A stretch of 60,476 nucleotides of DNA from Streptomyces sp. rh34. GTDB taxonomy: Bacteria; Actinomycetota; Actinomycetes; Streptomycetales; Streptomycetaceae. The notes below the pieces were generated by a model. The model did not search any database and had not been told where the DNA came from. It worked only from the letters and a program-made list of their open reading frames with translations. Positions 4,759-11,839 of this stretch are shown in pieces; positions within the stretch are counted from its first letter, which is position 1; each line of letters opens with the position of its first letter. The stretch lies in NCBI RefSeq assembly GCF_002551245.1, contig NZ_NTGZ01000012.1, positions 1 to 60,476 of the forward strand, written 5' to 3'. The position numbers were made by a program, and so were the translations under genes.

Positions 4759-4983
4759 GCTCCGCCCCGGCACTCTGCGGCTCTGGCGCCTCCGGCACTC
4801 CGGCAGCGCGCCGGGGCCGGGTCCTGCACCGGCCCCTCATTCCGGCCAACCTTCCTGTCATGACGGCGAGTTGCCGGGCTTCTTCCCGCCGCTCCGTTTA
4901 TCGACAGCCACATCGGGCTATGCCTCAACCGCTGACGACGGTGGTCACGCCGTCGATGTTCCCCCCGTCCTAGGAGGTGTCCG

Positions 4984-5070
4984 ATGGCCAAGCGCATTCT
5001 TTACAAGGCTGCGAGCAAGTTCGGCTTCACGACCAAGGGAGCCGCCGGGGCCTACCCCTGGATCCCGTAA
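4984..5070 (+). CDS. Candidate RiPP precursor peptide, 28 aa
   Basis: A perfect AGGAGGT ribosome-binding site (4972-4978) stands 5 bp before this ATG, and the frame closes with TAA at 5068-5070. The peptide has a basic, amphipathic N-terminal part (KR at 3-4, K8, K12, K18, with FGFTTKG at 13-19), a small-residue linker (GAAG) and the C-terminal hexapeptide AYPWIP containing Tyr24 and Trp26. A cytochrome P450 gene follows 72 bp later. A short leader, an aromatic C-terminal core and one P450 match the logic of P450-crosslinked RiPPs such as the atropopeptide tryptorubin, whose core is AWYIWY. Identity as a precursor is inference; the strong ribosome-binding site, small size and context support it. 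Confidence 0.8.
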   Translation: MAKRILYKAASKFGFTTKGAAGAYPWIP

Positions 5071-5086
5071 CACGTCAGGCCCGATG

Positions 5087-5119
5087 ACGGCCCGGCCCCG
5101 CCTGTCGGGGCCGGGCCGT
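5087..5119 (+). terminator. Hairpin between peptide gene and P450 gene
   Basis: A perfect 14-bp stem (5087-5100 pairing with 5106-5119) with a CCTGT loop, followed by TTCT rather than a long U-tract. It sits after the peptide stop and before the P450 start. It probably works as a partial terminator or mRNA-stabilising element that yields more peptide message than enzyme message. Confidence 0.7.
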
Positions 5120-5142
5120 TCTCCGACCCAGGGGTATCACCG

Positions 5143-6396
5143 TTGACCGAACAGACCATGCCCCGCCTCCCGGTCCGTACGGGCGCGACGCAGGCCGGGC
5201 TGATGGAGCAGTACGAGAAGGACCGCCTCGGCCATCTCCTGGCCTCGGTCGAGCGGCACGGCCCGGTGGTGGAGCTGACCGGGGGCACCGTCCTGGTGAA
5301 CGACCCGGCCGCCGTCCACGACGTACTCCGCTGCACCAACACCGACTTCCTCGTCACCGGCAACATCCGGCGCGACGAGGTCAGCGGCGAGCGCGGCGAT
5401 CCGGCCACCGAAGCGTGGATGCGGGGCCGGCGTGCCACCCAGAAGGGCATGTCTCCCCCGGCGCTGGAGGCCCACCGCGCCTGGCTGGAGGAAGAGACCG
5501 GCCGGCTGTGCGACCGCTGGCGGACCCGTTCCTCGGTCATCGATCCCGTCGCCGAGCTGGAGCAGTTGTCCGCCCGCTCCTTCGCCCGGTTCTGCTTCGG
5601 CACTCGCGACGCCGGGGCCGCCGCCCGGCGCACCGGCGACCTGCTGAACTCGCTCACCCCGCTGATCAGCAGCCCCTTCCACTTCCCACCCGCCGTGCGC
5701 CGCCTCCTGCCCCGCTACCGCCGGTCGGTCAGCGCGCAGAAGAAGCTGGAGGAGGAGCTGCGCCGGGTGCTCGACGGGCCGGGCGAGGGCGGGCTCGTCG
5801 CGTCGCTGGCCGCCGCCGGGCTCGACGGCGAGGCGACGGTCCGCATGCTCGTCTCCAACGGCCTCGCCTCCTACCGGGTCCCGGCCGCCGCCGTCACCTG
5901 GGCGCTGGTGGCGCTGGCCCGTGAGCCGGACGTGGCCGAGGAGTGCGCCACCGCCGTGGACCCGGGCGGCGGCGACACCACCCCGGACATCCTGCGCTGG
6001 ACGATCGCCGAGTCACTGCGCCTGTGGCCGCCCAACTGGCTGATCCTGCGCACGGCCAACGGCGAGCAGACCTGCGGCGGCTGGAGCCTCCCGGCGGGCG
6101 CGGCGGTCATGATCTCGCCGTACGTCATGCACCGCACCGCACCGGTCTTCACCGACCCCTCGGCGTTCCGCCCGCACCGCTGGGCGTCGCTCCAGCCGGC
6201 CGCCGGGGAGTACCTCCCGTACGGGATCGGCAGCCGCTGGTGCGTCGGCAAGGCGCTGGCGGACCTGGAGCTGGCGACCGTCCTGTCCACGCTCGTGGCC
6301 CGGTTCCGCTTCACCGTGGAGCACATGGACCCGCTCCCGGACGTACGGACGACGCTGCTCCCGGCCCGCCTCACCCTGGGGCTGAGGCCCCGCTGA
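5143..6396 (+). CDS. Cytochrome P450, candidate peptide-crosslinking enzyme
   Basis: 417 aa soluble bacterial P450. It has the E290-x-x-R293 motif (ESLR), the heme loop YGIGSRWCVGKA with the thiolate ligand Cys367, and a C-terminal beta region. The I-helix normally carries an AG-x-(D/E)-T signature; here it reads LASYRVP (241-247), so the acid-alcohol pair that protonates the peroxo intermediate is replaced by Arg-Val. That suggests non-standard chemistry. The TTG at 5143 has AGGGG 8 bp upstream; ATG at 5158 is an alternative. Position directly after the 28-aa peptide gene suggests it cross-links Tyr/Trp in that peptide. No ferredoxin, protease or exporter gene is adjacent. Confidence 0.88.
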   Translation: MTEQTMPRLPVRTGATQAGLMEQYEKDRLGHLLASVERHGPVVELTGGTVLVNDPAAVHDVLRCTNTDFLVTGNIRRDEVSGERGDPATEAWMRGRRATQKGMSPPALEAHRAWLEEETGRLCDRWRTRSSVIDPVAELEQLSARSFARFCFGTRDAGAAARRTGDLLNSLTPLISSPFHFPPAVRRLLPRYRRSVSAQKKLEEELRRVLDGPGEGGLVASLAAAGLDGEATVRMLVSNGLASYRVPAAAVTWALVALAREPDVAEECATAVDPGGGDTTPDILRWTIAESLRLWPPNWLILRTANGEQTCGGWSLPAGAAVMISPYVMHRTAPVFTDPSAFRPHRWASLQPAAGEYLPYGIGSRWCVGKALADLELATVLSTLVARFRFTVEHMDPLPDVRTTLLPARLTLGLRPR

Positions 6397-6429: not shown

Positions 6430-6576
6430 TCAGCCGTTGACGGTGGCGTGCTCCAGGAACGCGGTCCAGGCGGCCGGGGCGACGGCGAAGGCGGGCCCGT
6501 CGGTGACCTTGGAGTCGCGGAGGTGGACGGTGTGGGGGCAGGGGGCGACCTCCACGCAGGCTTCGGCGGAATGCTG
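6430..6576 (-). pseudogene. DUF397 protein C-terminal remnant
   Basis: The minus strand reads about 48 residues ending at the TGA at 6432-6430, including CVEVA, LRDSKVTDGPAFAVAP and AAWTAFLEHA. This is the conserved DUF397 domain usually encoded beside XRE-DUF5753 regulators. Immediately upstream the frame meets a TAG, and no start or companion regulator remains, so the gene has lost its N-terminus. Confidence 0.7.
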
Positions 6577-7060: not shown

Positions 7061-7725
7061 CTGAGCGTGATGCCGTGGCGTGCCGGCCCCAGGCTCGCCC
7101 GGTAGCGGCGGACGCCCCAACTGCGGTGCTCCAGCTCGGCGGCGACCAGTACCTCCGCCGTGTTCGCCGCGCCGGGGACCAGCTCCACCAGGGCGGCCAC
7201 CGGGTGGTCGCCGACCAGCGGCAGGCGGCGCAGGCTGCGAAACTCCCACTGCGGGTCCGGCTGGGACGCCCCGTGGCCGCGCACGATCCACTCCTCCCGG
7301 CCGGGGCCCGCGTCCGGCTGCCGCTCGACGCCCAGGTCCACGATGCCGGTGCTCACCGTGAAGCTGAGTCCGGTACCGGGGCCGGCCGCCGCCGGGCGGG
7401 TGCGTTCGCCCGGGTCGATGAGCCGGGCCACCGGCCGTACGGCGGGGTCGGGGGTGGTGAGGGAGACCGCCAGGGAGGCGTGCCGGAAGACGCCCGGTGA
7501 CTGCGGGGTCTCCGGCCGGAAGGAGCACACCAGCAGCAGGTGGCGGTAGTCCCGCCCGGGCGTGCCGCGGACCTGGGCGAGCCAGTCGGCGGGGGCGCTC
7601 GGGTGGTCGGCGGGCAGCAGGTCCCAGCCGAAGGTGAGCCGGCCGCGCAGCGGTCCGTCCTCGGCCGGGGCGCCGAGGGTGCGCTCCGGCACCAGCGCGA
7701 CATCGTGCAGCTGGACCTCGGTCAT
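7054..7725 (-). CDS. Hypothetical protein co-transcribed with a CHAT protease
   Basis: 223 aa that I do not recognise. No signal peptide or membrane helix is visible. It has alternating hydrophobic/charged segments that look beta-rich (LTFGWDLLPADHPSAPADW, YRHLLLVCSF, LSFTVSTGIVDLGV, WGVRRYRASLGP). Its ATG overlaps the stop of the upstream CHAT gene by 4 bp (7722-7725), so the two are translationally coupled and probably work together, for example as substrate, regulator or effector of the protease. The C-terminus ends within an 8-bp tandem repeat. Confidence 0.75.
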   Translation of the reverse strand: MTEVQLHDVALVPERTLGAPAEDGPLRGRLTFGWDLLPADHPSAPADWLAQVRGTPGRDYRHLLLVCSFRPETPQSPGVFRHASLAVSLTTPDPAVRPVARLIDPGERTRPAAAGPGTGLSFTVSTGIVDLGVERQPDAGPGREEWIVRGHGASQPDPQWEFRSLRRLPLVGDHPVAALVELVPGAANTAEVLVAAELEHRSWGVRRYRASLGPARHGITLSP

Positions 7726-10700
7726 GTGCTGGCTCCCTTGCTCCGGCCCAGTAGGAAGGTGAACGCTCCCCAGTCCCGGTAGTGGGGGTGGCGGGCCCGG
7801 GTGGCGGTCTGCGCTGCGCGGAACGCGCGCTCAAGATCCTCTCCCGAAGCGGCCCGCTGGTGCAGGCGGTGGTAGAAGTACGTCGCCGGTTCGGGGCGGA
7901 CGGCCCACAGGCAGCCCACGACGGCCTGCACACCGGCGGTGATCAGCGCGGCCGGGACGCCGCGGATGTTGTCCGCCCGGTCGAACCGGCCCAGCGCCGA
8001 CTCGCACGCGGCGAGCGTGACCAGGCGGACGCCCCGCAGGTCGAGCCCGAGGAAGTCGTGGGCGAGGAGCCGGCCGTCGTCGTCCTCGTCCGGGGTGAGG
8101 TAGAGGCAGTGCAGCCAAGGGGCGTCCTGGTCCATCGTGCCGTGGACGGCGAGGTGGACGACGTCGGCCGTGGCGAGTTCGGCGAGCAGCGCGGCGCGGG
8201 TGGCGGCCGGACCGGTGAGCACGGTCGCGCCGACCGCCGCGGCGACCGTCCTGGCGTGCTCCTCCAGCGCGGGTTCGGCGGGCATGCCGTAGGGGACGCC
8301 GCCGTTGGCGGAGGCGAGGACGGCGGTGCGGCGGGGGCGTACGGGGCCGGCGGCGGGGAGGAGCGCTTCGAGACCGGCGATGGTGGTGACGGTCCAGTCG
8401 TCGGCGATCACGCGGCCCCCGGCGGTGCAGAGCGCGACCGGCAGGTAGTGCAGTGCGCCGTGCGGCCAGAGCAGGAGGCGGTCCTTTCCCCGCGCGCGCC
8501 ACGCGGCCCACCGGTCGCCCGCGACGAGCGGGAGTTCGTGTCCCGTGAGCAGCCGGCGGCCCTCCGGTGTCACGTCGCCGAAGAGCGGGTCGCGTTCGAC
8601 CTCCGTGCGGACCGCCTCGACCAGGTCGGCGACGGGGTGCCGGTCGGCGTAGGCCGCGGCCCGTTCCGGTCCGCCGTCGGCGGGGTCGCCGAGCTGCACG
8701 ATCATCGCGCTGTCCTCGCGGGTGACGGCGAGCAGGACGGCCGCGCCGTTCACGGCGGTGGGCAGGAACCAGGTGAGCAGGACCGTGCGGTCGTCCAGGA
8801 GTTCCGCCGTACGCGCCCACAGGTGCGCGTCGTCCACGAACGCCGCCGAGCGGCCGCGCAGTTCGTCGTCGATGAACGAGGAGATGCGCCGACGCAGGTT
8901 GCGGGCGAACTGCTCGCGTTCGTCGCCGCCCCGGGGGGCCCCGCCGCCCGCGCTGCCCTCGCGGCCCCCGTCGCCGTCGCCGCTCTCACGGTCCTCGGCG
9001 CCCTCGCGTCCGGGGTGGTGGTCGGCGTCCAGCACGTCGAGCAGGTTCGCCGTCGCGCCGCCGGGGGCGGTGGGGCTCTCCAGGGCACGGAGTTTCTCGA
9101 CGTAGTTCCCGATGTGCGGGGGCGGGGTGACCGGGCCGTCGATCCGGCGCCACGCGCCCGCCTCCGGGCCCTTGCCCGCCTGGTGGAGGCCGAGCATCAG
9201 GGCCACCGGCATGGTCTCGATCTCGACGGTGAGTTGCCATACGGCGGAGTGGACGAGGTCGCGCAGCACCTCGCCGAGCGCCGGGGCTCCGCTGGTGTCG
9301 AAGTTCGGGACGTCCACGATGATCGCGTACACGGCGTTCCTGAGGGCGTCGCCGCGCAGTCGCGGTATCTCCCGGAGGACGGGCAGCAGGCAGGCCTGGG
9401 CCAGGTCCTGCTGGCCCAGTGAGGCGTAGGAGAGAGCGGCGTACGTGGAGTGGCCCCACGGGAAGGGGACCGCGGCGGAGACCGGCTCGCCCTGCTCCAC
9501 GGCCAGGCGGTACAGGTCCGCCGTCAGGAGTCTGACCGCCGCGCTGTCGCCCGGTCCCGCCTGCCGCAGGAGGTCGGCGCCCAGCGCGGGCTGCCGCCGG
9601 TCGCGGGCGTGGGCGGCGGCGTGCAGCAGCGCGGCGGAGCGCCGGGCCGCCGGCCAGGACGCCGGGAAGGACCGTGGGACGGGGTCGCCGGGGGCCGGGC
9701 AGCCGGTGGGGTCGTCGGGGAGTGCGTGCAGCCGGGCCTCCGTCAGCTGCCGGCGGTGCGCGGGGCCCCGGAGGAGGGAGGAGCTGTCGGCCCAGTCCAG
9801 CGCGGCACGGAGCAGCGGCCGGTCGGCGCGTTCCCGGGCGAGGCTGATGCCCTGGTCGACGGTGCGGGCGGCGACGGCGCCGCCGTACGCGGCAAGGAAG
9901 GCCCCGGCGTCCGAGCCGAACACGTTCTCGCGTACGGCGTCGACGAGCGTGTCCGGCACGTCGGCCACCGACCGGAGCAGGAAGAGCAGCAGGTCCGGCG
10001 GAGCGGCCCCGGGCGCCTCGTACAGCGCGGCGAACGCGGCCCGCGCGGTCTCCTGGTCCACGTCTCCGTCCTCCGCGAGCACCTGGGCCAGCGCGGCCAG
10101 GATCGCCGGACGCAGCGCGCCGCCCGGGCCGCGCTCCCGGTCATCCGACTCGGCCGCCCTCAGCAGCAGTTGGGCCGCCTCCGCCCGCAGCCGCGCGTCG
10201 AACCGCATCGGCCGCTCCCCGTCGGGCCACGGCCGGTGCGGCGGAGAGCGGTACAGGTCGGCGGCGAGCTGGGCGGCCCGCACGGTCCACTCCTCACCGG
10301 CGTACCCGTCGCCGCCCCGGTCCTCCGGCCCCCGTACCGCCAGCCGCAGCCTGGCGGCCGCCAGGAGGGCCGCCGCCAGGTCCGGGGAGCCCTCCAGCTC
10401 CGCGACGAGGCGGCCCGCCACCGTGTCGGCCTCCTCGAAGACCGAGCGATCGCACCGCTGCGCCAGAACCGGCGCCGCGCTCTCGACCGTACGCAGGGCC
10501 GCCTGCCGCCAGGTGGACTCCGCCCCGCACTCCTCGGCGACCTCGGCCACCAGCCGCCAGTAGAGGTGGAGGACGTCGGCGGGCGCGTCCCGGCTCCGGG
10601 ACGCCTCCTCGGTCAGCGCGTTCAGCATCGCCTCGGCGGTCAGCCCGTGCGCTTGCTCCAGTTCCCGCTCCAGTCCGCGCCGCGTCCGTTCCATCCCCCG

Positions 10701-11273
10701 GGCCCGCACCTTGGCCGCGTCGAGGGACAGCACCCGGTCCCCGACGTGGAGCGCCAGTTCCAGCAGGACGGACACCGGGTCGAGGACGTAGGTGACGGTG
10801 GGCGGACCGGCCGCCGCGTGGCCGGGCGGGCCGAACCGCACCCGGCCGGCGCAGACCATCCCCCGCCGCGTCTCGTCGGTCAGCACGCCGGCCATGTCGC
10901 CCGCGGCCGGCAGCACGTGGGACACCACCAGGACGAGCGATCCGGCACCGGCGGCCGTCTCCAGCCAGCCGGGCGGCAGGTCCAGGCCGAGGTCGTACGC
11001 CAACTCCAGGCCGCCGGGGCCGAAGACGGCGAAGACGCCCGCCGTGTCCCGGTGGACGCACCACCGTGCGTCGACGGCGTCCGCGAACGGCAGTCCGTCC
11101 AGCGAGGTGAGCACGGCCAGCCCTCGCGTGTGGGCCCGGGTGAACAGGCTTCCGCCGGGACCGGCCCCGGTGAACGGGCTGAGCCCCGCCTGCCCGACCG
11201 CCAGCCCGGCGTGCCGGACTCCGTCCACCTCCGCCACGAACGCCCAGCCCGTGACATCCCCCGACCGTCGCAC
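7722..11273 (-). CDS. Large CHAT-domain (caspase-like) protein
   Basis: 1183 aa from a GTG at 11273, preceded by a G-rich GAGGGGG stretch. The C-terminal ~340 residues form a CHAT peptidase domain. The catalytic His is in HLAVHGTMD (His about 1044) and Cys in LAACESALG (Cys about 1090), both intact. The N-terminal ~250 residues appear beta-rich (GWAFVAEVDG, VFAVFGPGGLELAYDLG). The centre is a long Ala/Leu/Glu-rich helical array that may be TPR-like. A low-complexity Asp/Glu/Gly linker around residue 760 precedes the protease part. CHAT proteases in bacteria act in defence or regulated proteolysis, and here the 223-aa partner overlaps the stop. The longer open frame upstream of 11273 lacks coding character. 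Confidence 0.85.
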   Translation of the reverse strand: MRRSGDVTGWAFVAEVDGVRHAGLAVGQAGLSPFTGAGPGGSLFTRAHTRGLAVLTSLDGLPFADAVDARWCVHRDTAGVFAVFGPGGLELAYDLGLDLPPGWLETAAGAGSLVLVVSHVLPAAGDMAGVLTDETRRGMVCAGRVRFGPPGHAAAGPPTVTYVLDPVSVLLELALHVGDRVLSLDAAKVRARGMERTRRGLERELEQAHGLTAEAMLNALTEEASRSRDAPADVLHLYWRLVAEVAEECGAESTWRQAALRTVESAAPVLAQRCDRSVFEEADTVAGRLVAELEGSPDLAAALLAAARLRLAVRGPEDRGGDGYAGEEWTVRAAQLAADLYRSPPHRPWPDGERPMRFDARLRAEAAQLLLRAAESDDRERGPGGALRPAILAALAQVLAEDGDVDQETARAAFAALYEAPGAAPPDLLLFLLRSVADVPDTLVDAVRENVFGSDAGAFLAAYGGAVAARTVDQGISLARERADRPLLRAALDWADSSSLLRGPAHRRQLTEARLHALPDDPTGCPAPGDPVPRSFPASWPAARRSAALLHAAAHARDRRQPALGADLLRQAGPGDSAAVRLLTADLYRLAVEQGEPVSAAVPFPWGHSTYAALSYASLGQQDLAQACLLPVLREIPRLRGDALRNAVYAIIVDVPNFDTSGAPALGEVLRDLVHSAVWQLTVEIETMPVALMLGLHQAGKGPEAGAWRRIDGPVTPPPHIGNYVEKLRALESPTAPGGATANLLDVLDADHHPGREGAEDRESGDGDGGREGSAGGGAPRGGDEREQFARNLRRRISSFIDDELRGRSAAFVDDAHLWARTAELLDDRTVLLTWFLPTAVNGAAVLLAVTREDSAMIVQLGDPADGGPERAAAYADRHPVADLVEAVRTEVERDPLFGDVTPEGRRLLTGHELPLVAGDRWAAWRARGKDRLLLWPHGALHYLPVALCTAGGRVIADDWTVTTIAGLEALLPAAGPVRPRRTAVLASANGGVPYGMPAEPALEEHARTVAAAVGATVLTGPAATRAALLAELATADVVHLAVHGTMDQDAPWLHCLYLTPDEDDDGRLLAHDFLGLDLRGVRLVTLAACESALGRFDRADNIRGVPAALITAGVQAVVGCLWAVRPEPATYFYHRLHQRAASGEDLERAFRAAQTATRARHPHYRDWGAFTFLLGRSKGAST

Positions 11274-11404
11274 GCCGCCCCCTCGTACCCGCGGATCATG
11301 GCCCCCCGCGCCACCCTTCCACAGGCGGCGAACACGGGCAGACCGTTTCCGGCGGGATCCGGCCGCCCGGCCGCCCCGACCTCTCCCGGACGTCGCGGAG
11401 CCGG

Positions 11405-11839
11405 TCAGCCGCAGGGCCGGAACACCGCCACGGCCTCCCCGTCCTCGCCCTCCCCGGCGCCCCGGAAGGTGACCGTCAGCCGCATCCCGACGCGGAGACC
11501 GTCGTGCGCGCACTCCACGATCCCGGTCATCATCCGGGGGCCCTCGGCGAGGTCGACGACGGCCGCGACGTACGGGACGCGGGAGCCGAAGGGCGGCAGG
11601 TCGTTGCGGTGGACGACGGACCAGGTGTAGAGGGTCGCCTCCCCGCTCGCACGCTCCCACCGGACGTCCTCGCTCCAGCAGTACGGGCAGAACTCGCGCG
11701 GGTAGTGGTGGGCCCGGCCGCATCCGCCACAGCGGCGCAGGAGCAGGTGCCCCTCCGCCGCCGCGTCCCAGTAGGGGCGGGTGAAGGCGTCGGGCTCGGG
11801 GAGGTCGAAGCGCGGGGCCGCCGTGCGCTCCGGGGTCAC
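11405..11839 (-). CDS. DUF35/OB-fold zinc-ribbon acyl-CoA-associated protein
   Basis: 144 aa from a GTG at 11839 that overlaps the DoxX stop (GTGA). The N-terminal half has a rubredoxin-like zinc ribbon with two Cys pairs (CGGC and CPYC, about residues 36-53). The C-terminal half is an OB-fold (LYTWSVVHRNDLPPF, YVAAVVDLAEGPRMMTGIV). DUF35 proteins are obligate partners of SCP-x/Ltp thiolase-fold enzymes (as in the ChsH2-Ltp2 aldolase). A likely partner is the protein at 919-2190, whose gene carries the same operator. Confidence 0.85.
   Translation of the reverse strand: MTPERTAAPRFDLPEPDAFTRPYWDAAAEGHLLLRRCGGCGRAHHYPREFCPYCWSEDVRWERASGEATLYTWSVVHRNDLPPFGSRVPYVAAVVDLAEGPRMMTGIVECAHDGLRVGMRLTVTFRGAGEGEDGEAVAVFRPCG

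Follow-up and report, generated by a model that had tools for sequence, protein, structure and literature searches.

Several peptides carrying a direct link between a tyrosine and a tryptophan have been described. Pseudosporamide, a product of Pseudosporangium, is N-acetyl-Tyr-Pro-Trp with an aryl bond between Tyr and Trp, and the accessible text of its description gives an MIC above 100 µg/mL for the six microbes tested and an IC50 of 11 µM for P388 (PMC7277628). Similarly, micitide 982 contains a link between Tyr C6 and Trp C5', and its published synthesis, as we read the excerpt available, places a proline unit between the Tyr and Trp partners (PMC13250620); the available section of a review describes micitide as the product of a P450, MciB, and a precursor peptide (PMC12299652). 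In lapparbin, according to a source available in part, Tyr C6 is joined to Trp N1'. MpoB, a "P450 cyptide synthase", appears with a YPW motif in the title of a 2025 paper (reference in PMC13383641), and full-text literature searches for YPW with P450 and for MpoB returned no further source on this enzyme.

Other P450-modified RiPPs serve as points of comparison. The biarylitide enzyme P450Blt makes Tyr-x-Trp rings (PMC12352619; PMC10929621), and the biarylitide precursor is given, in the accessible part of one paper, as 5 aa encoded by an 18-bp gene (PMC13417212). ApyO, according to an excerpt of its report, acts close to the C-terminus, where it cross-links YLY, a motif of the aromatic-x-aromatic kind (PMC11117315). 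Atropopeptides are defined, in the published text available, by a KSLK-type leader motif (variants KSLK, RSLK, ESLK, KSRK, KPLK, and PSLK), a Trp at core position 2, and a P450 class of their own (PMC11450843). Classifications of P450 RiPPs by Nam (2023), He (2023), and Liu (2024) are outlined in the portion of the review available (PMC12299652), and the peptide group considered below may already be listed in one of them.

Layout and conservation of the locus

The window, by which we mean the whole 60,476-nt stretch of Streptomyces sp. rh34 DNA that was analyzed, contains two neighboring genes on the plus strand. The upstream gene (4984..5070; ATG at 4984, stop at 5068-5070) encodes a 28-aa precursor peptide, MAKRILYKAASKFGFTTKGAAGAYPWIP, and is preceded by a ribosome-binding site, AGGAGGT (4972..4978), with a 5-nt spacer to the ATG. 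Residues 1-22 (4984..5049) compose the predicted leader, which resembles cittilin leaders, and are followed by the predicted core AYPWIP (5050..5067), in which a cross-link is predicted to join Tyr24 (5053-5055) and Trp26 (5059-5061). Cittilin is a name that we take to denote RiPPs with a YIYY core, and it is applied here to YIYY/YVYY precursors. The stop codon is separated by 72 nt from the TTG start of the second gene (5143..6396), which encodes a cytochrome P450 of 417 aa (Pfam p450, E=1e-33), a predicted Tyr-Trp macrocyclase whose predicted haem-thiolate ligand, Cys367 (6241..6243), lies within YGIGSRWCVG and is invariant in alignments A1 and A2. The original prediction had placed AGGAGGT 5 bp before the ATG, a 28-aa gene ending in AYPWIP behind it and a P450 gene 72 bp further on, and these coordinates and features were all found to be accurate.

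Within its own genome (8.2 Mb) the locus is single-copy, the next P450 match having 30% identity. Five of the nine neighboring frames scanned gave a Pfam match (PNPOx, PspAB, CHAT, ChsH2 zinc-ribbon/OB-fold, and, weakly, DoxX), and none of the nine was recognized by Pfam as a RiPP tailoring gene; the peptide itself matched nothing in NCBIfam or Pfam, and a scan of 4759-5200 found neither a sigma-70 promoter nor a T-tailed terminator. Downstream, the minus strand carries a 41-codon frame (6430-6555), which we take to be probably a remnant and whose end resembles, by eye, the tail of a DUF397 protein, as well as a gene for a large protein that ends in a CHAT domain (7722-11723).

Relatives were picked by P450 score and not by peptide. 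Among 392 same-genus genomes sampled, six, including that of the window, encode a P450 at E<=1e-50, and a pattern-based search that took a single genome per species yielded four named Streptomyces loci at 91-95% P450 identity together with three distant ones; of the named relatives found, Streptomyces anulatus NRRL B-2873 came closest, with a P450 identity of 95% and a DNA identity of 89-94% in segments that span most of 12 kb. The close group comprises seven distinct loci, namely the window, L009-L012 (P450 identity to the window 91-95%), L018 (66%), and L019 (61%), while L016 and L017 were left uncounted because their precursor and intergenic DNA repeat those of L011 and L012. All seven encode this peptide, or one very similar to it, ahead of the P450, and the short gene is therefore genuine, beyond chance. 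A purine-rich, Shine-Dalgarno-like site precedes the peptide in the other six loci as well, the weakest being that of L019 (ACGGGGAC).

Conservation is concentrated at the C-terminus of the peptide, where A23-P28 (AYPWIP) are identical in 7/7 loci, and extends to the leader residues M1, A2, K3, R4, L6, A9, A10, S11, K12, G14, T16, K18, G19, and G22. The leader motif FGFTTKG, to which the original prediction drew attention, is not conserved as such, given the changes F13L, F15I, and T17V among the close loci. The peptide of L018 continues for three residues (SSR) past AYPWIP, so that the C-terminal limit of the core is unsure. Peptide dN/dS is 0 for window/L009 (one synonymous change and no nonsynonymous change), 0.29 for window/L012, 0.14 for window/L018, 0.20 for window/L019, and 0.09 for L018/L019; the P450 values for the same pairs are 0.22, 0.23, 0.47, 0.44, and 0.61, respectively. 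The peptide is under purifying selection, and in the three distant pairs it is more tightly constrained than the P450; the reverse holds for window/L012, a comparison that carries little weight because it involves four changes in all. Free drift of the peptide (dN/dS near 1), which had been named beforehand as evidence against a precursor, was thus not observed in any of the five pairs. At the DNA level, the two-gene cassette is all that L018 and L019 have in common with the window, the flanks compared not being shared, whereas L009-L012 share its neighbors. The interval from pspAB to the peptide gene is longer in L009-L012 than in the window by approximately 1.2-1.3 kb (window 4775-4842 vs. 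L009 4350-5701).

The spacer between the two genes contains a GC-rich hairpin (5086..5120, plus strand) with a 15-bp stem, a 5-nt loop, and no T run. The folding z of the window spacer is -2.7, and its stem length was reached by 0 of 200 shuffles. Perfect stems of at least 11 bp, reached by at most 6 of 200 shuffles, occur in 10 of 21 loci, and stems with an interruption are found in L011 and L012 (z -2.0 and -2.7); the L019 spacer has a z of -4.1, the L018 spacer contains an 11-bp stem while folding as a whole no better than shuffles (z -1.2), and no long perfect stem was found in L057-L062, L064, or L066. Searches of Rfam gave nothing above the gathering score, and Pxr matches covering the hairpin, which at 24.1 and 22.7 bits fall short of the 80 required, were taken as chance. 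In the Nocardia locus L021 (NZ_CP107850.1, OG300_RS00080), a hairpin recognized by eye after the precursor gene (2880-2940) overlaps the annotated P450 start, which, because it lies inside the hairpin, is probably too early, the true start being downstream. We infer that the hairpin likely attenuates or stabilizes the transcript such that peptide exceeds enzyme.

The P450 clade and the peptides encoded beside it

The main tree included 18 of 21 control P450s, the controls being the loci of the best 30 profile matches that remain after the nine with a peptide (the fragment L035 and the near-copies L039 and L045 were dropped), and L024, L041, L064, and P0008 were left out. In this tree, the window belongs to a 34-row clade (100/100) whose 11 loci with DNA are those with a Y-x-W peptide, and a 100/98 branch splits 26 rows (18 controls, six cittilin, two PYSYY) from 43 rows that include the window. 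Among the 43, 23 are without DNA, and the peptide counts given below cover loci with DNA.

The two sides of this branch differ in helix I, in which the P450 of the window has R245-V246-P247 (5875..5883) replacing the usual acid-threonine pair. The threonine column holds Thr in 26/26 cittilin-type and control rows; among the 43 window-side rows it holds Val in 38, Ile in two, and Ala, Met, and Thr in one each, and the residue that follows is Pro in 41/43. Within the window P450 clade, the pair is replaced, mostly by x-Val followed by Pro. CYP152 peroxygenases have Arg-Pro in place of the acid-alcohol pair. A full-text literature search for the acid-alcohol pair together with RiPP cross-linking P450s found no paper among those available.

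When atropopeptide-type P450s were added (in a tree with 14 controls, further near-copies having been dropped), the window clade persisted (28 rows, 100/98), while threonine-bearing rows nested among x-V-P rows with weak support (91/72, 91/86). The 43 window-side rows may consequently be a grade, in which the x-V-P rows lying outside the window clade are not necessarily monophyletic with it. The 12 atropopeptide-type P450s compose one side of a 100/100 branch, 3.08 changes per column from the window P450; those beside AWYIWY peptides also lack the acid-threonine pair, yet they lie at this distance. The tree comparison proposed in the original prediction therefore leaves both tryptorubin-type and cittilin-type P450s outside the window clade. 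Identity of the window P450 is 26-29% to cittilin-type P450s vs. 24-37% to control P450s, and hence no closer to the former, and a structure model (pLDDT 87) is that of a plain P450, with CYP184A1, CYP51, and the like as best solved matches, which is non-discriminating.

All groups were scanned for upstream peptides with the same two filter settings, one stricter and one looser. With the stricter filter, a Y-x-W peptide was found just upstream of the P450 in 11/11 loci with DNA of the window clade; the precursor scan suggested in the original prediction thus bears it out, and P450 homologs lacking an upstream peptide gene, which it regarded as counterevidence, were not encountered in this clade. 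Elsewhere on the x-V-P side, an aromatic peptide was found in nine of ten loci, three of them Y-x-W, and the tenth (L059) has an aromatic peptide whose ribosome site fails the filter. Cittilin-like loci had an aromatic peptide in 9/9 cases, none being Y-x-W, and the 21 control loci had a peptide in 0/21. The looser filter gave an aromatic short frame in one of the 21 controls (L048, MPGFGLPYAQFW) and Y-x-W in none. Viewed across the best 30 profile matches in 394 class genomes, a peptide was found in nine (the window, L025, five YIYY, and two PYSYY) and in none of the other 21. In the window's own genome, no peptide was found at seven of ten other P450 matches, with flanks that were measured from the match and lie partly inside the P450.

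The peptides of more distant relatives are varied. L020, of the same genus (P450 37%), encodes MKFFSRLTRKSMPGRYPWH upstream; L021, on the Nocardia plasmid NZ_CP107850 (P450 33%), encodes MSRRLLYVAARLIGAKTRVRKYIWDVS; and the peptide of L023, which is the same place as L025, ends in GGRYHWATPTG. In the family to which the L023/L025 genome belongs, profile A2 matches a P450 at E<=1e-66 in 14 of 297 genomes, and a short aromatic peptide lies upstream in 14/14 (13 by script; L059 by eye, then confirmed), the ends being SYAWV, SYIWH, RYHWAW, RYWWFH, YHWATPTG, Y[IP]YWPY (four loci), AYPFYW (two), RYIIYRLR (one), and the cittilin-type PYVYY (two). Plasmid searches gave, besides the Nocardia locus, a single further record, a Halorussus P450 of 28% identity. 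L013-L015, from Halobacillus and Ktedonobacteraceae, have P450s of 24-33% identity that stand outside the trees; nothing resembling the peptide appeared around L014, the match in L013 begins within the gene such that its upstream region was not properly covered, and L015, searched for the words TTKG, YPW, and KSLK only, gave one antisense chance frame.

Several of these loci have features of their own. Approximately 160 nt before the P450 match, L058-L061 (G960, G1015, G873, G963) encode precursors that end in Y[IP]YWPY followed by a short Lys-terminated tail; with their several aromatic residues, these precursors might form two or more rings, and the accompanying P450s are a separate, well-supported group. 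L062 and L064 encode precursors ending in TGAYPFYWG and AGAYPFYWR, respectively, approximately 200 nt before the match, and the L064 P450 has an internal TAG (a pseudogene or a sequencing error). In the genus of the window, L026 and L027 encode MRKMILTGALFARLTRKDRLTLPYSYY before a P450 that groups with the cittilin ones.

The co-occurrence of the helix-I change with an upstream Y-x-W peptide gene (11/11 readable loci) provides a simple rule for genome mining. A further idea, offered tentatively and with the odds somewhat against it, is that the window P450 represents its own RiPP macrocyclase lineage, one without the helix-I acid-threonine pair (x-Val-Pro), and one that came to act with Y-x-W precursors separately from the enzymes of biarylitides and atropopeptides, and that AYPWIP, held while leader and enzyme diverge, might serve as a conserved signal or in a cofactor-like role and not as a fast-evolving antibiotic. 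The invariant AYPWIP end is in our judgment unusual for a RiPP core, and poses the testable question of why bacteria keep this peptide.

The predicted product and its relation to known systems

Taken together, co-conservation, purifying selection, and the controls provide good support for a genuine minimal RiPP locus, the precursor-plus-P450 unit of the original prediction. The P450 is predicted, with fairly high confidence, to join Tyr24 to Trp26 by an aryl-aryl bond across Pro25, the likely product being a small Tyr-Pro-Trp ring peptide; a cross-link pattern different from that of atropopeptides, as the original prediction expected, is thus probable, with Tyr i linked to Trp i+2. In the proposed sequence of events, the basic leader (residues 1-22) would dock on the P450 and thread the C-terminus to the haem, where one two-electron oxidation (-2 H, -2.016 Da) would link the two residues. 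A C-C bond would correspond to pseudosporamide and micitide, and a C-N bond, the alternative, to lapparbin. The leader would presumably be cut off by a host protease not encoded at the locus, and the hairpin would keep the enzyme level below that of its peptide. For a product that has lost its leader and 2 H, the calculated [M+H]+ is 744.3715 for AYPWIP, 673.3344 for YPWIP, 463.1976 for YPW, and 505.2081 for Ac-YPW.

Three other readings were weighed against such a Tyr-Trp ring. The P450 might modify the peptide in a different manner, by hydroxylation, by N- or C-terminal chemistry, or by two or more cross-links in which the backbone or Pro participates; P450 RiPPs with multiple rings or with hydroxylation are known (tryptorubin, in the accessible text of PMC11450843; SroB, PMC11002830) and the conserved Ile-Pro tail may take part, but the core offers one Tyr and one Trp at i,i+2, the spacing of known single Tyr-Trp cross-links, and the helix-I threonine present in 26/26 comparison rows is missing, which makes this reading unlikely. 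Less probable still is a regulatory leader peptide, in which the progress of the ribosome over Tyr and Trp codons would control the hairpin and P450 expression by attenuation while the P450 acts elsewhere. The order of short frame, strong GC hairpin, and enzyme gene is indeed that of an attenuator; however, the frame has only one Trp and two Tyr codons, which are not in a run, its leader part is kept at the amino-acid level with synonymous changes, and no Rfam model matches above the gathering score. Moreover, L058-L061 have the aromatic peptide without the long stem, and the aromatic pattern of the peptide tracks the P450 clade.

The least probable reading, which we regard as very nearly discounted, is that the locus encodes an atropopeptide of the tryptorubin type. 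Like tryptorubin A, it is a two-gene cluster with a short aromatic C-terminal core and a single P450, the likeness on which the original prediction of an atropopeptide-like architecture had been based. That architecture does not carry over to the details: no KSLK-type motif is present in the window peptide, AYPWIP has Tyr at core position 2 and Trp at position 4, the leaders are unlike, and the P450s lie far apart, behind the 100/100 branch noted above. KSLK or PSLK leaders were found in 12/12 AWYIWY loci fetched (15 of 392 genomes matched). Membership of this class is already refuted by its published definition, as far as the accessible text gives it (PMC11450843).

The Tyr-Pro-Trp ring remains the preferred reading, and the locus can be compared on this basis with the other systems. 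Cittilin-type precursors ending in YIYY/YVYY were found in L032, L034, L036, L041, L043, L063, and L065, and, with precursors of 27 aa, resemble the window in the order of one precursor before one P450 and in the leader pattern KRxxYxxAAxLG. In local alignments, the score of the window leader against the leaders of L032, L034, L036, and L043 was reached by 1, 90, 19, and 12 of 5000 shuffles, respectively; the Nocardia (L021) leader is like that of the window and unlike those of cittilins, the L026 leader (PYSYY core) is unlike that of the window (1582 of 5000 shuffles reach the score), and the L020 and L025 leaders show no similarity to it. Membership of the cittilins, considered for this likeness of leaders, is ruled out by the core, Y-x-Y-Y as opposed to AYPWIP, and by the P450s, which in cittilin-type loci form their own 100/98 group keeping the helix-I threonine, whereas the window lies across the 100/98 branch and lacks it.

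The best NCBIfam match of the window P450 is NF050147 (aminopyruvatide P450 ApyO), at 160 bits, well below the equivalog cutoff of 525. Aminopyruvatide biosynthesis is alike in that the YLY joined by ApyO is also an aromatic-x-aromatic motif close to the C-terminus, but the window has no MNIO or radical SAM partner in the nine frames scanned and its peptide has no C-terminal Asp. With the biarylitides the locus shares the Ar-x-Ar three-residue ring (predicted here from the Y-x-W spacing), and P450Blt accepts Tyr-x-Trp substrates; the precursor, however, is 28 aa long and not a pentapeptide.

The closest likeness, one of motif and layout, is to pseudosporamide and micitide, which have a Tyr-Trp link at i,i+2 (predicted in the window) with Pro between (in micitide, as we read its synthesis); the window core runs on with Ile-Pro after Trp. 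Pseudosporamide differs further in being N-acetylated, no acetyltransferase having been found among the nine neighboring frames scanned. As suggested for MpoB by the title of its paper, a YPW motif on a precursor peptide is combined with a P450, and the window does have YPW near the precursor C-terminus with a P450 gene beside it. The chemistry is not new, because Tyr-Pro-Trp rings are already known, and the distinct product class envisaged in the original prediction gives way to cross-linked products in print, as described in the accessible parts of PMC7277628 and PMC13250620 and in the MpoB title. We therefore predict that the locus belongs, by motif and layout, with the Tyr-x-Trp cross-linked P450 RiPPs, to which it contributes a small gene pair that lends itself to testing and whose enzyme is placed in its P450 clade.
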